From Oscillospiraceae bacterium (GTDB lineage Bacteria > Bacillota > Clostridia > Oscillospirales > Oscillospiraceae), in the NCBI GenBank assembly GCA_031262065.1, contig JAISIK010000048.1, positions 1 to 38,262 on the forward strand: a stretch of 38,262 nucleotides of DNA. Direction: 5' to 3'. Within the stretch, counting starts at the first letter, position 1. Each line of letters opens with the position of its first letter. Positions 328 through 33,590 of the stretch are shown here, in pieces. The position numbers and the translations under genes were made by a program. The notes under the pieces are model-generated. The model saw nothing but the letters and a program-made list of their open reading frames with translations, had not been told where the DNA came from and searched no databases.

Positions 328-403
<76 letters not shown>

Positions 404-404
404 T

Positions 405-426
405 GCGGACGGCGAAAGCCGTCCGC
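405..426 (+). terminator. Hairpin terminator-like element after the rRNA/tRNA operon
   Basis: Perfect 9-bp stem GCGGACGGC-GAAA-GCCGTCCGC with a GNRA loop right after tRNA-Trp; no strong T-tract. Confidence 0.5.
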
Positions 427-433
427 AATTCAG

Positions 434-638
434 TTTGCCCTGTCGGGCAAGGGAAGTGTCCTTCGGACGTGAAGTAGCTTATCAAGCAGTGAAGTGTGCC
501 TGCGACACATATTGGGCAAACTTTACTTCATGTTTTGCCGAAGGCAAATCACGTCACTATTGACGGGGTCAATTACTTCACTTTTTGCGTAGCAAAATAC
601 TTTACTACTTGTGTGGCTTTTTCTATCAACAAACACAC
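434..638. repeat. Array of short hairpins separated by GTGAAGT(A)-like spacers, with the spacer inverted (TACTTCAC/ACTTCAT) in the second half
   Basis: TTGCCC-TGTC-GGGCAA (435-450), GTCC-TTC-GGAC (458-468), GCTT-ATC-AAGC (477-487), TTTGCC-GAA-GGCAAA (534-548), GTCA-CTAT-TGAC (553-564), TTTTGC-GTA-GCAAAA (583-597). Spacers: GGAAGT (452-457), GTGAAGTA (469-476), AGTGAAGT (488-495), then ACTTCAT (525-531) and TACTTCAC (574-581). Confidence 0.65.
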
Positions 639-783
639 GTCGTCGCAGACTTTGCTTAGTTCGCGGCGGCTTTTGTTCTATTTGCGCTTTGAGACAATTG
701 TGCGAACGGTGTTAATTTGCCGCTAAGAATCCGGCAAGAATATAGCAGCATATTTAGCGCACGGTGTTGCGGAGGCGAAACGA

Positions 784-1693: not shown

Positions 1694-3160
1694 GGGATAC
1701 GGACATGGCAGACATGGGAAAGTTGCTGGCAGAGGGCAAGGGTACAAAGAAATGGTTCAAGGTAGTTAGTCTTTGCCTAGTCTTGCTGGCGGTACTTATC
1801 GGTGGCGTATGTGGCACATTGTTACTATTCAGTTTGATCGGCGGCCCCAATCAGAGAGATACACAAAAGCTTGCAGTAATAATTTGTGGGGGATCTATTG
1901 TTGTTATCACGGTAAAACTGATCGGCGCAATTAAACGAGCGATCAGGCAGGCACGAACAAAAATCGAGGTATACGAAAACGGCATCAAAGGGCGCTTTTT
2001 GAGCCGTTCGGGTGATGCCCTAAAGTATGCAATAATGCCCTACGAGGATATTGAGGACGTTGATTACTCCACGAAGCGTGTTTGCATCAAGAATTATTCT
2101 GGGGATGACGTCTCTTGCTACCCGTCGAACGCTGGGATGATTGGGATACCAATTGTTTCTCATGGCAAATCTAGTTGGGATACGGACATGGGGAAACTGC
2201 TGGCAGAGGGCAATGCGAAAAAGAAATGGTTCAAGGTAGCAAGCCTTTTTCTAATTTTACTGGCGCTACTCTACGCCTCGGCGAGACTGGCTCTCTATGT
2301 GGCGAAAAACTACAAAGCACCTTCGATAAGCAAGTTATATTTCCATTCCGAGATAGTTGGAATACTCTTTGCAGTTATTTTGGGTGTGTTGCTTGTTGTT
2401 ATCACGATTAAACTGATCAGCGCAATTAAACGAACGATCCGGGAGGCACGAACAAAAATCGAGGTATATGAAAACGGCATCAAAGGGCGAAAGGTAGGAT
2501 CGGGCGGTCTAATGTATGCCGCAATACCGTATGCGGATATTGAGGAAGTTCGTTACGCCGCGGACTATGTATGGATCAGCGAAAAGGCTAAGGATAATAA
2601 ATATAATTATTTTAGCTTCAGAGTGTCAAACGCTGAGGTGATTGGGAAAGCAATGGTTTCTCATGGCAAATCCAGTTGGGATACGGACATGGGGAAACTG
2701 CTGGCAGAGGGCAATGCGAAAAAGAAATTGTTCAAGGAAGCAAGCCTTTTTCTAATTTTGCTGGCGCTACTCTACGCCTCGGCGAGACTGGTTCTCTATG
2801 TGGTGAAGAACTACAAAGCTCCTTCGATAAGCAAGTTATATTTCCATTCAGGTTTTGTTGGAATACTCTACGCAGCACTATTCTGTGTGTTGCTTGTTGT
2901 TATCACGATTAAACTGGTCGTCGCAATTAAACGAACGATCCTGCAGGCACGAACAAAAATCGAGGTATACGAAAACGGCATCAAAGGGCGCTTCGTGATC
3001 AAAGGGAGCTTCTATTGGCGGCGGCTGTGGTGGTATCCTATGCATCTAAGCAAAAGAATAATACCCTATGAGGATATTAAGAAAGTTGATTACTCCTCGA
3101 AGAGTGTTTGCATCAAAGGTGATTATTGCTACCCGTCGAACGCTGAGATGATTGGGAAAG
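1694..3160 (+). repeat. Three tandem intragenic repeats (about 483 and 501 bp period)
   Basis: GGGATACGGACATGG recurs at 1694, 2177 and 2678. GAACAAAAATCGAGGTATA[C/T]GAAAACGGCATCAAAGGGCG occurs in all three units. Units 2 and 3 are almost identical over their first 100+ bp. Confidence 0.9.
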
Positions 3161-3837
3161 CGATTAGTAAGTGCTTAGATAGGATAAACGAAGAAGAGGA
3201 GCGGAAAAGAAAAGAAGAAATGAGAGCACTAGAGTCATTAGCAGAGCAGGGAGATGCGAACGCACAATGTAACCTCGGAGATTGCTATTGGGACGGTGAA
3301 GGTATCGAGAAGGATTATGCCAAAGCTGTACACTGGTATCTAAAAGCGGTGGAGCAGGGACATGCGGATGCGCAATATAAGCTCGGTCTGTTGTATCATG
3401 TCGGTCTAGGCGCTGATAAGGATTATGCAAAAGCTGTATACTGGTATGAAAAAGCGGCGGTGCAGGGAAATAGTAATGCACAAAACAGCCTAGGGAATTG
3501 CTATAAGAACGGCGAAGGTGTCGAGTCAGATAATAAGAAAGCCGCATACTGGTATGAAAAAGCGGCGGAAATGGGAAATGCAGACGCCCAATGTAATCTT
3601 GCGCTTAGTTATTATATGGGCACTGGTGTCGTGCAGGATTATGCCAAGGTTGTATACTGGGCGAAAAAAGCTGCGGAAAATGGCAAGCCGGATGGACAGT
3701 TTATACTCGGGCACTGCTATTATCAAGGTTTTGGTATTGTTGAGGATGTATCCAAAGCCGAATACTGGTATCGAAGAGCAGCGGCACAGGGTCATGATCT
3801 TGCGCGAGAATCCCTGCAACATTTCTTTTCAAACTAG
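1705..3837 (+). CDS. Membrane protein with three tandem TM/PH-like units and C-terminal Sel1 (TPR-like) repeats
   Basis: 710 aa; RBS GGAGG. Three units 'DMGKLLAEG..KKWFK..SL.LILLALL...VVITIKLI.AIKRTI.QARTKIEVYENGIKGR...IPYEDIEEVDY...CYPSNAEMIGKA', then about five Sel1 repeats ('GDANAQCNLGDCYWDGEGIEKDYAKAVHWYLKA'). Confidence 0.85.
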   Translation: MADMGKLLAEGKGTKKWFKVVSLCLVLLAVLIGGVCGTLLLFSLIGGPNQRDTQKLAVIICGGSIVVITVKLIGAIKRAIRQARTKIEVYENGIKGRFLSRSGDALKYAIMPYEDIEDVDYSTKRVCIKNYSGDDVSCYPSNAGMIGIPIVSHGKSSWDTDMGKLLAEGNAKKKWFKVASLFLILLALLYASARLALYVAKNYKAPSISKLYFHSEIVGILFAVILGVLLVVITIKLISAIKRTIREARTKIEVYENGIKGRKVGSGGLMYAAIPYADIEEVRYAADYVWISEKAKDNKYNYFSFRVSNAEVIGKAMVSHGKSSWDTDMGKLLAEGNAKKKLFKEASLFLILLALLYASARLVLYVVKNYKAPSISKLYFHSGFVGILYAALFCVLLVVITIKLVVAIKRTILQARTKIEVYENGIKGRFVIKGSFYWRRLWWYPMHLSKRIIPYEDIKKVDYSSKSVCIKGDYCYPSNAEMIGKAISKCLDRINEEEERKRKEEMRALESLAEQGDANAQCNLGDCYWDGEGIEKDYAKAVHWYLKAVEQGHADAQYKLGLLYHVGLGADKDYAKAVYWYEKAAVQGNSNAQNSLGNCYKNGEGVESDNKKAAYWYEKAAEMGNADAQCNLALSYYMGTGVVQDYAKVVYWAKKAAENGKPDGQFILGHCYYQGFGIVEDVSKAEYWYRRAAAQGHDLARESLQHFFSN

Positions 3838-3950
3838 GTACAGAGTACAGTATTACATACAGGCACTCTAACCCCGCCAAAGAACCCCACAACAAAATCT
3901 CAAAAGCAGCGCATTTGAGTACCAACGCAATACTTTCCACCCCAAACAGC

Positions 3951-3984
3951 AAACAGAGTCCGCCTTTTTGGCGGACTCTGTTTT
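3951..3984. terminator. Bidirectional intrinsic terminator
   Basis: Perfect 14-bp stem AAACAGAGTCCGCC-TTTTT-GGCGGACTCTGTTT between convergent genes, with T-tracts on both strands. Confidence 0.85.
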
Positions 3985-4681
3985 ACAGTATTTTAGACAA
4001 TCGCGTGTTTTGGAAGGCTGTGTTCGCTTTCTCAATCAGTCGCGGCAGCTTTGTATAGCGTGCGACAAGCCAGCCGATTTCAGCCAAGGCAACGCCACCG
4101 ATCACGTCATACAGCCCGTGCTGCTTGGTGAACAGGGTCGAGGCAAAAACCAGAAGCGAGCCGATTACACAGGCGATGCTGATGGGAATGCGGTGGCGCA
4201 GATGCCTGCACTCGAACATATACCGCGTGCCGATCCACGCAATATAGCAGTGCGCGGAGGGGAAGAGGTTCGTCGGGGTATCGACGGTGTAAATCAGATT
4301 CATCAGCCACGCGTTTACGCCGCCGCCCGCTATTTCCGGGCGAATATTCGTCGTGGGCAGGAAAACGAAAAAGAAGAAGCCGACTACTTTTGCAACGAAA
4401 TCCGCAGCTGCAAGGCGGCAGCATAATTCCGGGCTTTCCTGCGCCACGGTGATATACTGATACGCCCAAAAGATATAGGTCAAAACATAAGCCCAAACCC
4501 AAGCGGGGACGAAGGGGATCAGCTTGTCCGCCGCGCTTGTCATGTCAAGCCCCGCGCTGCCGTTTGCCAGAAGCTGCACGAGTTTTGCAGCCTGATAGGA
4601 CAGCAGGTTCATGATTCCCGTTAAAATCAGCGGGAAGACTGCGTAGGACGGAATAATCTTGCGTAAATTGCGGCGGAACAT
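3983..4681 (-). CDS. PAP2-superfamily phosphatase/phosphotransferase membrane protein
   Basis: Motifs 'NLFPSAHCYIAWIGTRYMFECR' and 'STLFTKQHGLYDVIGGVALAEIGW' (PAP2 SAH and H-x3-D signatures), multiple TM segments. Confidence 0.85.
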   Translation of the reverse strand: MFRRNLRKIIPSYAVFPLILTGIMNLLSYQAAKLVQLLANGSAGLDMTSAADKLIPFVPAWVWAYVLTYIFWAYQYITVAQESPELCCRLAAADFVAKVVGFFFFVFLPTTNIRPEIAGGGVNAWLMNLIYTVDTPTNLFPSAHCYIAWIGTRYMFECRHLRHRIPISIACVIGSLLVFASTLFTKQHGLYDVIGGVALAEIGWLVARYTKLPRLIEKANTAFQNTRLSKIL

Positions 4682-7618: not shown

Positions 7619-8143
7619 TCAGAATCCTTCGTTGGATTGCAGCCCCACGGTCGACAAAATATGCGTAAATTTTTCGCGATAGGTATTTTGCAGCGCCGAT
7701 TTGCAGTGAATGCTCAGCGAATAGTAATGCAGACCGTCGTACAGCAGCGTGCCGCAGCAGGTGAGGCTGCCGTCTTCGCCGGTTGCCGTCCATGCGTAGC
7801 GGTATTCATCCACGGAGGATTGCCCGAGCGCAACAGGGCGCAGCTGGTCATAGGTCTGCCCGGTGAGGCGAAGAAGCGCGCTGTCTAAGTCGCTTGCGGA
7901 AAAAACGTCCGTGATGATTTCATAATCGCCGTCAGCTTGCGTGTACACTTTTTGATTGCCCTGCGCCAACGAAACGGAAAGGAGCATTTGCGTAGGAATT
8001 TCGGCGCTCAGGGTGTATTGCGGCTCTGCTTCAAAAATAATTGTGTCATTTACACATTCTTCTAGCGTAACACCCTTGACAGAACAGGAAGATAATAGTA
8101 AAATAAAGATGATAGTGCAGATTAGTAAAAGGTTTTTTTTCAT
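7619..8143 (-). CDS. Putative lipoprotein
   Basis: MKKNLLLICTIIFILLLSSCSVKG lipobox; start trimmed to 8143; no family recognised. Confidence 0.75.
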   Translation of the reverse strand: MKKNLLLICTIIFILLLSSCSVKGVTLEECVNDTIIFEAEPQYTLSAEIPTQMLLSVSLAQGNQKVYTQADGDYEIITDVFSASDLDSALLRLTGQTYDQLRPVALGQSSVDEYRYAWTATGEDGSLTCCGTLLYDGLHYYSLSIHCKSALQNTYREKFTHILSTVGLQSNEGF

Positions 8144-33347: not shown

Positions 33348-33361
33348 TAATGGGATAATGC

Positions 33362-33590
33362 AACACACGGTGATGGAGAAGAGTATTCCGACTTCCAATG
33401 CAGAGAGAGGGCGGTCGCTGCAAGCCCTTGCGGAACAAGAAGAACGTCACTCCGGAGTGCAGGGCTGAACAGGAAGTAAGCCCCCGCGGGTCCTCCCGTT
33501 ACAGAGGCGAAGTGCCCGGCATTTTGCCGGGAATTCAGGTGGTACCACGGATTTATTCGCCCTGAACCCATGCGGTTCGGGGCGTTTTTC
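33362..33590 (+). promoter_or_regulatory. T-box riboswitch leader of valS, probable GUC (Val) specifier
   Basis: GGTGATGGAGAAGAGTA, AGAGAG, distal loop GGTCGCTGCAA, AGAAC-GTC-ACTCCGGAGTG, T-box AGGTGGTACCACGG (33537-33550), and a terminator, all directly upstream of valS. Confidence 0.92.
33558..33589 (+). terminator. T-box regulated terminator
   Basis: CGCCCTGAACCC-ATG-CGGTTCGGGGCG followed by TTTTT. Confidence 0.88.

Follow-up and report, generated by a model that had tools for sequence, protein, structure and literature searches.

A hairpin-interrupted heptamer array behind a tRNA-Trp gene of an Oscillospiraceae bacterium, a probable relic of a mobile element linked to S23/IVP proteins

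The window, a stretch of 38,262 nucleotides from an Oscillospiraceae genome (contig JAISIK010000048.1), carries an array of seven-letter words interrupted by short hairpins, which we read, with a probability of roughly 0.6, as the decayed copy of a mobile selfish element, one that is not autonomous. A complete element consists of a hairpin of a gene end or tRNA terminator, an anchor (segments A:B), three heptamers in forward and, beyond segment C, four in inverted orientation, with hairpins between the heptamers of each group, and finally a gene of the PF05635 family. The window copy is a complete array but a solo, non-autonomous relic: no PF05635 gene was found behind it, nor any match to this family in the host genome (G000). 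Four of its seven heptamers carry one mismatch, which marks it as an ageing copy, and it is presumably now immobile or dependent on a helper.

Architecture of the window array

An earlier note, made from the letters alone, had described short, unrelated hairpins separated by a GTGAAGT word that inverts halfway. Words and hairpins were found by sequence inspection at the positions it gave, and the inversion was confirmed, with three forward and four reverse heptamers (Table 1). The start and extent were corrected: the element spans positions 404-605 (+), larger than first described, and begins with a 24-nt hairpin. One proposed hairpin (GTCA-CTAT-TGAC) was out of register, the homologous hairpin being h5. 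Upstream lie a 5S rRNA and three tRNA genes (ARAGORN, Rfam), and the CCA end of tRNA-Trp abuts the element with zero gap. Six different hairpins occupy the heptamer gaps, and the next likely gene downstream starts at 784.

Table 1. Parts of the window element and the tRNA gene that precedes it
Feature	Positions	Strand	Basis
tRNA-Trp	328-403	+	ARAGORN, Rfam
Hairpin -1, TGCGGACGGC-GAAA-GCCGTCCGCA, 24-nt perfect, terminator-like	404-427	+	sequence; common to C37 and C24 copies
Segment A (AGTTTGCCC), local pairing with B or long-range pairing with C	432-440	+	sequence; conserved in 33 aligned copies
Segment B (GGGCAA), closes anchor hairpin with A	445-450	+	alignment, covariation helix 1
Spacer S1 GGGAAGT, 1 mismatch to GTGAAGT	451-457	+	alignment A1
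Hairpin h1 GTCC-TTC-GGAC	458-468	+	covariation, helix 2
Spacer S2 GTGAAGT	469-475	+	exact word match
Hairpin h2 GCTT-ATC-AAGC	476-488	+	covariation, helix 3
Spacer S3 GTGAAGT	489-495	+	exact word match
Hairpin h3 GTG...CAC, weak in window copy	496-508	+	helix 4 of family
Segment C (GGGCAAACT), complement of A, separates the two half-arrays	514-522	+	alignment
Spacer S4 ACTTCAT, inverted, 1 mismatch	525-531	+	alignment
Hairpin h4 TTTGCC-GAA-GGCAAA	534-548	+	covariation, helix 5
Spacer S5 ACGTCAC, inverted, 1 mismatch	551-557	+	sequence, alignment
Hairpin h5 ATTGAC-GGG-GTCAAT	559-573	+	sequence; helix 6 of family
Spacer S6 ACTTCAC, inverted	575-581	+	word match
Hairpin h6 TTTTGC-GTA-GCAAAA	583-597	+	covariation, helices 7 and 8
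Spacer S7 ACTTTAC, inverted, 1 mismatch; final recognisable part	599-605	+	sequence, alignment

Two exact GTGAAGT words 6-26 nt apart occurred once in the window and not at all in 100 shuffles, and folding of positions 404-720 gave z = -4.7 (+ strand) and -3.2 (- strand) against shuffles. Searched with Rfam, the window gave only the 5S rRNA, the tRNAs and a T-box above the gathering score, with no family for the array; on the contig of the second host copy (C37, see below) only one tRNA was matched.

Other features of the window were recorded in passing. The T-box leader (33361-33567 (+), RF00230) scored 120.8 bits, well over the gathering score. An open reading frame of 710 aa (1705-3837 (+)) contains three membrane-like repeat units (MGKLLAEG...KKWFK) followed by Sel1-like repeats, and resembles an internal triplication. 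An unexplained small repeat (TTTTTCTATCAACAAAnACA) is shared by window positions 609-640, behind the element, and host contig C24 near 13125, before the truncated copy described below.

Copies in the host and in related genomes

A pattern private to this locus would have refuted the earlier note, and that is not what was seen: the host has a second complete copy (G000:C37:646-843(-), 76% identical to the window copy) and a 5' fragment of the element on contig C24, and many copies were found in high-copy relatives. Hairpin -1 is nearly identical at the head of the window, C37 and truncated C24 copies. This hairpin (TGCGGACGGCGAAAGCCGTCCGCA) also stands alone elsewhere in the host, at G000:C13:55352-55375 and C68:18623-18650, so it may be a widespread terminator that the element has picked up.

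The two-word pattern was present in 32 of 99 relatives' genomes, some single matches being due to chance; where copies are many, hairpins are seen to alternate with the words, and the reversed control pattern is near zero. A stricter pattern of anchor plus words was matched in at least 24 of 394 genomes of the host's order (controls: zero). The named records with the full layout are MAGs of Oscillospiraceae and other Clostridia, mostly from animal gut, and the order +++---- is common to about 60 distinct copies.

Outside the order, patterns of two or three words alone were discarded as a detector because they are loose: three-word matches in IMG/VR were mostly hairpin-free, and only one contig (L245) resembled a related array. 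L245 has two arrays of 4+4 GTGAAGT units (3845-4055 and 7848-8058), 4 kb apart, whose centres differ and are mutually reverse-complementary. At L117 (about 150-260), an array of GTGAAAT type stands directly behind a GTGAAGT array, i.e. two adjacent element types. Searches of the open-access literature on GTGAAGT hairpins, palindromic repeats, PF05635 and S23/Avd turned up no account of such arrays, which is weak evidence of novelty.

A linked gene of the PF05635 family

Three features are absent from the earlier note: the linked PF05635 family, a three-way complementarity within the array and the kinship to 23S rRNA intervening sequences. Directly behind complete copies at L087, L160, L309, L327 and L374, and also at L052, lies a gene for a four-helix-bundle protein of about 120 residues. 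The linked proteins match PF05635 (23S_rRNA_IVP; E 5e-25 and 1e-27) and TIGR02436 (E 9e-29 and 3e-30), with a further match to the solved chain 2rld_A (E 1e-20). Among 51 genomes whose array status was tallied by hand, PF05635 was present in 22 of 26 with arrays vs 10 of 25 without (Fisher p = 0.001). Four array-bearing genomes, the host included, have no PF05635, which counts against a partnership with the protein, and many array copies have no such gene behind them.

The linkage was also seen from the side of the protein. With genes fetched by PF05635 alone, and arrays of at least 3+3 words within 330 nt counted, ordered inverted word arrays were found upstream of 26 of 80 genes vs downstream of 1 of 83 (p = 1e-8), and upstream of 24 of 75 when GTGAAGT words were excluded; for the whole set, controls gave 0 of 276 (shuffles) and 1 of 58 (other genes). 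Other protein sub-families have the same array layout with different words (AATGAAG, TGATG, TGAAAT, GATAT, GAATTG, GTTATATT, GSTAAAT), and words without hairpins were also found at PF05635 genes (TTTTCAC, TGAATAAT, TTCTCTTC). Placed on the PF05635 protein tree, 11 word classes (several of them judged visually when their computed score did not exceed 2) required 12 changes, against a minimum of 10 and a shuffled mean of 50. This co-segregation, for which common descent of array and gene would suffice, shows that the two form one unit and does not speak to binding.

Covariation and the level at which the structure acts

Covariation was measured on an alignment of 33 copies (A1), in which the heptamers are nearly invariant and the hairpins differ in length and sequence; the earlier impression of variable stems between conserved spacers was thereby borne out. 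Cells of the hairpin structure were paired in 92.5% of cases vs 73.9% in shuffles, changes on both sides were found in 28 of 36 pairs vs 16.9 in shuffles, and 220 cells had changes on both sides vs 73, the shuffles preserving column make-up and not relatedness. Pairing fell to 32-49% when partner columns were slid by 1-3, a control that leans favourably as the structure was drawn from the same sequences. RNAalifold returned a branched tree in which forward heptamers pair in register with inverted ones.

The pairing of TTTGCCC with GGGCAAA proposed earlier is part of a conserved three-way complementarity: segment A is complementary both to B, locally, and to C, and from one sub-type to the next C changes along with A (TTTGCC/GGCAAA, GTTCCGC/GCGGAAC, GTGCC/GGCAC, GCGCC/GGCGC, TTCGCC/GGCGAA). 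Since A:C pairing crosses the heptamer pairing, the two folds are mutually exclusive as simple nested structures, and the complementarity might act as a switch.

Very strong covariation, a branched tree and a switch-like A/B/C segment set would all suit a structured RNA, which the earlier note had allowed, whether non-coding or an mRNA leader: a hairpin tree, read from the upstream gene, that controls the four-helix-bundle gene or is processed by RNase III in the manner of the 23S rRNA intervening sequence. The same-strand position behind a tRNA gene would permit read-through transcription, and the array could instead be the leader of the PF05635 mRNA given that the gene lies only about 25 nt behind it in some full copies. 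We consider the RNA explanation unlikely, at about one chance in a handful, on the following grounds. G.U makes up 1.5% of the hairpin pairs vs 10.7% in 114 tRNAs from the same loci, and G.T, with 11 cells, is hardly more frequent than the A.C mismatch, with 8. The loop type tracks heptamer polarity when read on one strand (left half TNC/TNNC, right half GNA/GNNA; 34:0 vs 5:39), so that neither strand is uniform in loop type. Rare G.U and polarity-linked loops fit DNA hairpins of oriented units, or arm-to-arm copying, better than a selected RNA. The lack of a matching Rfam family, the many copies without the gene and a promoter-like TTGACA-N17-TACAAT between array and gene at L386 also speak against it. 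The covariation stands, and structure at the level of DNA is favoured by this argument, which is no proof.

Insertion sites and mobility

The earlier suggestion of a mobile element inserted behind a tRNA operon gained support from the sites occupied. Of 57 window-type arrays, 15 closely follow a tRNA gene of the same strand, and of 53 none closely precedes one (p = 2e-5); for PF05635 genes the counts are 33 of 80 and 1 of 83 (p = 2e-11). Different elements stand behind tRNA-Trp in several genomes (window, L106, L398, L468). Another recurrent site is the 3' end of a gene whose product ends ...HVESVVCL, read by this motif alone as a probable rRNA uracil methyltransferase of rumA/rlmD type: it is occupied at L087, L097, L309, L405, L408, L435, L471 and L478 and empty at L472, L473 and L483. 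The idea that the right arm of hairpin -1 is freshly copied from this target was dropped, because the arms are imperfect and the hairpin travels with the element (L471, L459, L477). Behind the same gene end, L473, L477 and L459/L471 contain repeated CACGTnGARAGTGTYGTKTGTCT blocks 0.4-2.4 kb apart, which look like attachment-site copies from serial integrations.

Occupied and empty sites were compared between sister species. At L344 (G200) the element sits exactly at a stop codon, and the orthologous site is empty in G160, G222 and G253; at L332 both G200 and G222 have the element and G160 lacks it, and in G200 the stop codon is supplied by the element's AACTAAG. Copies in different families can be nearly identical (L032 of family f1 and L354 of family f10: 98% over 243 nt, with unrelated flanks), and L325 and L356 are near-identical copies behind two different tRNAs of one genome (G194). 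Near-identical PF05635 proteins also occur across families (L397/L417; L438/L446/L447/L467). Homology ends sharply at unrelated sites. The empty orthologous sites and the near-identical copies in different families indicate that the element is mobile. At the empty-site comparisons no clean target-site duplication was seen, and the sequence from stop codon to terminator was replaced, not simply interrupted, which counts against the mobile-element explanation. Of the terminal inverted repeats and target-site duplication of a MITE, the element offers the complementary segments A and C, the latter in an internal position, and the empty sites offer no clean duplication. For the window locus the genus is too divergent for such a comparison (PPTase about 30-44% identical).

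The elements might have no dedicated mobility: passive quasi-palindromes would be remodelled by strand-switching in replication and spread within larger mobile elements, with the gene hitch-hiking. Whole hairpins are indeed swapped between two L087 copies that are otherwise nearly identical, and perfect, G.U-free arms suit arm-to-arm copying. The terminator hairpin ahead of L325 and L356 is inverted between the two, a sign of hairpin flipping that would also be in keeping with passive change. A fixed 3+4 layout with nearly invariant heptamers, homology that breaks off sharply at unrelated sites, a preferred orientation behind tRNA genes and co-segregation of word and protein fit this explanation poorly, and we rate it as rather improbable, a little below the RNA explanation.

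Candidate movers in the carrier genomes

RVT_1 matches were lacking in the host and, outside its genus, in 16 of 20 genomes that carry PF05635; the genomes without one include G115, G160, G194, G198, G200, G201, G211, G222, G263, G317, G331, G362 and G395, most of them >90% complete. No Y1_Tnp match was found in the host or in 10 of the 20 (G083, G087, G115, G160, G200, G211, G222, G263, G317, G362); as the genomes are mostly MAGs, these absences are provisional. Missing from many carriers, RVT_1 and Y1, the two enzyme families covered, are disfavoured as movers, as are the retroelement and REPIN/RAYT explanations that depend on them, and this would point to the four-helix-bundle protein as the factor that the element itself provides.

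Group IIC introns prefer sites behind transcription terminator hairpins, and insertion of the present elements behind terminators and at gene ends recalls those sites. PF05635 also resembles, and is homologous to, the Avd protein of DGRs (PMC10053308), so that a retroelement served in trans by the reverse transcriptase of a DGR or group IIC intron was considered; with RVT_1 lacking in the host and the 13 carriers named above, and no match to a group II intron ribozyme core within the window, we find it very improbable. Slightly more improbable still is a repeat of the REP/BIME/REPIN kind whose mover would be a RAYT (Y1, IS200-type) supplied in trans and reading a short word plus a hairpin. This explanation shares the logic of a short conserved word by a hairpin, in inverted pairs dispersed between genes (cf. 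PMC3116915), and conflicts with the unconserved hairpin sequence, a word that is not GTAG-like and the Y1-free carriers.

Proposed mechanism

For the mobile selfish element that we favour, the following course is proposed. When replication or transcription leaves a DNA strand unpaired for a time, the S23/IVP protein would bind the heptamer of its own element on that strand. It would do so as an oligomer (solved relatives are homopentamers), and the hairpins would fold away unconstrained DNA and so gather the heptamers for a single oligomer. The strand could take either of two exclusive folds: in one, A pairs with B and the forward heptamers with the inverted ones; in the other, A pairs with C and the inverted heptamers stay free. 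Once folded, it would be copied or moved to a new site, mostly one that follows a hairpin already present (tRNA terminator) or lies at a stop codon, with little harm to the host, and the chemistry of transposition would be provided by host replication or repair.

More tentatively, and with the balance of our judgement somewhat against it, these elements could represent a new class: a mobile folded DNA strand with S23/IVP as the sole element-encoded factor, heptamers specific to sub-families, hairpins as sequence-free spacers and the 23S intervening sequence (IVS) as one branch, having no transposase, recombinase or reverse transcriptase of its own. The word-specific arrays, tRNA-proximal sites and occupied or empty sites offer the whole S23/IVP family a testable seven-letter DNA partner and an assay. 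They also account for one class of the intergenic repeats left unannotated in gut Clostridia, and present a case where strong covariation may stem from DNA hairpins, not RNA.

Comparison with known systems

S23/IVP proteins are commonly annotated 'four helix bundle protein' and have, to our knowledge, no known function; likewise, we know of no mechanism given for the rRNA S23/IVP elements, which are labelled selfish. The nearest known thing to the present elements is the 23S rRNA IVS (Leptospira, Coxiella; PMC4990558), with which they share the PF05635/TIGR02436 protein, heptamers before the gene, the selfish label and stem-forming ends. In Coxiella, the IVS, called selfish, has three to four GACAGAT heptamers before the S23p gene and a 28-bp terminal stem (PMC4990558). 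Unlike the IVS, the present elements are found not within rRNA but after tRNA genes and at the ends of genes; covarying hairpins separate their heptamers, which form two half-arrays facing each other across a segment that complements the anchor; and there are many copies per genome, many of them gene-less. Measured against the features of an IVS, seven-nt spacer words occur in all aligned copies, PF05635 is encoded by complete members of the element family and not by the window copy or its host, and the window copy sits behind 5S rRNA and three tRNAs, not inside 23S rRNA.

In the wider phylum, PF05635 genes (25 examined) often have short direct repeats upstream, with a lag of 7 best in 7 of 9 clear cases. 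This 7-nt periodicity was seen outside the host's order at L520, L532, L534 and L541, and at L520 the PF05635 gene lies within LSU rRNA. An inverted 3+3 array was found in this sample only at L535, which belongs to the host's own family, so the opposed-array form looks lineage-specific. GTGAAGT in the window is probably best read as an IVS-type heptamer with hairpins between its copies.

The other systems are more distant. Group IIC introns differ in that the present element has neither a ribozyme match nor a reverse transcriptase. DGR Avd is homologous to PF05635 and forms four-helix bundles as a pentamer, whereas most of the present carriers have no reverse transcriptase. REP/BIME/REPIN repeats with RAYTs share a short conserved word plus hairpin, inverted pairing of units and dispersed non-coding copies; in the present elements the hairpins are free to vary, no GTAG word is found and many carriers are without Y1. 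The earlier view that the array is neither a terminator series nor an ordinary REP is supported, given varying hairpin sequences and the word GTGAAGT. It was also right to set CRISPR aside: short repeats and near-regular spacing are shared, but CRISPR repeats measure a few tens of bases and their spacers are unrelated and non-palindromic, whereas here the repeat is 7 nt long, the intervals are palindromic and the array inverts halfway.
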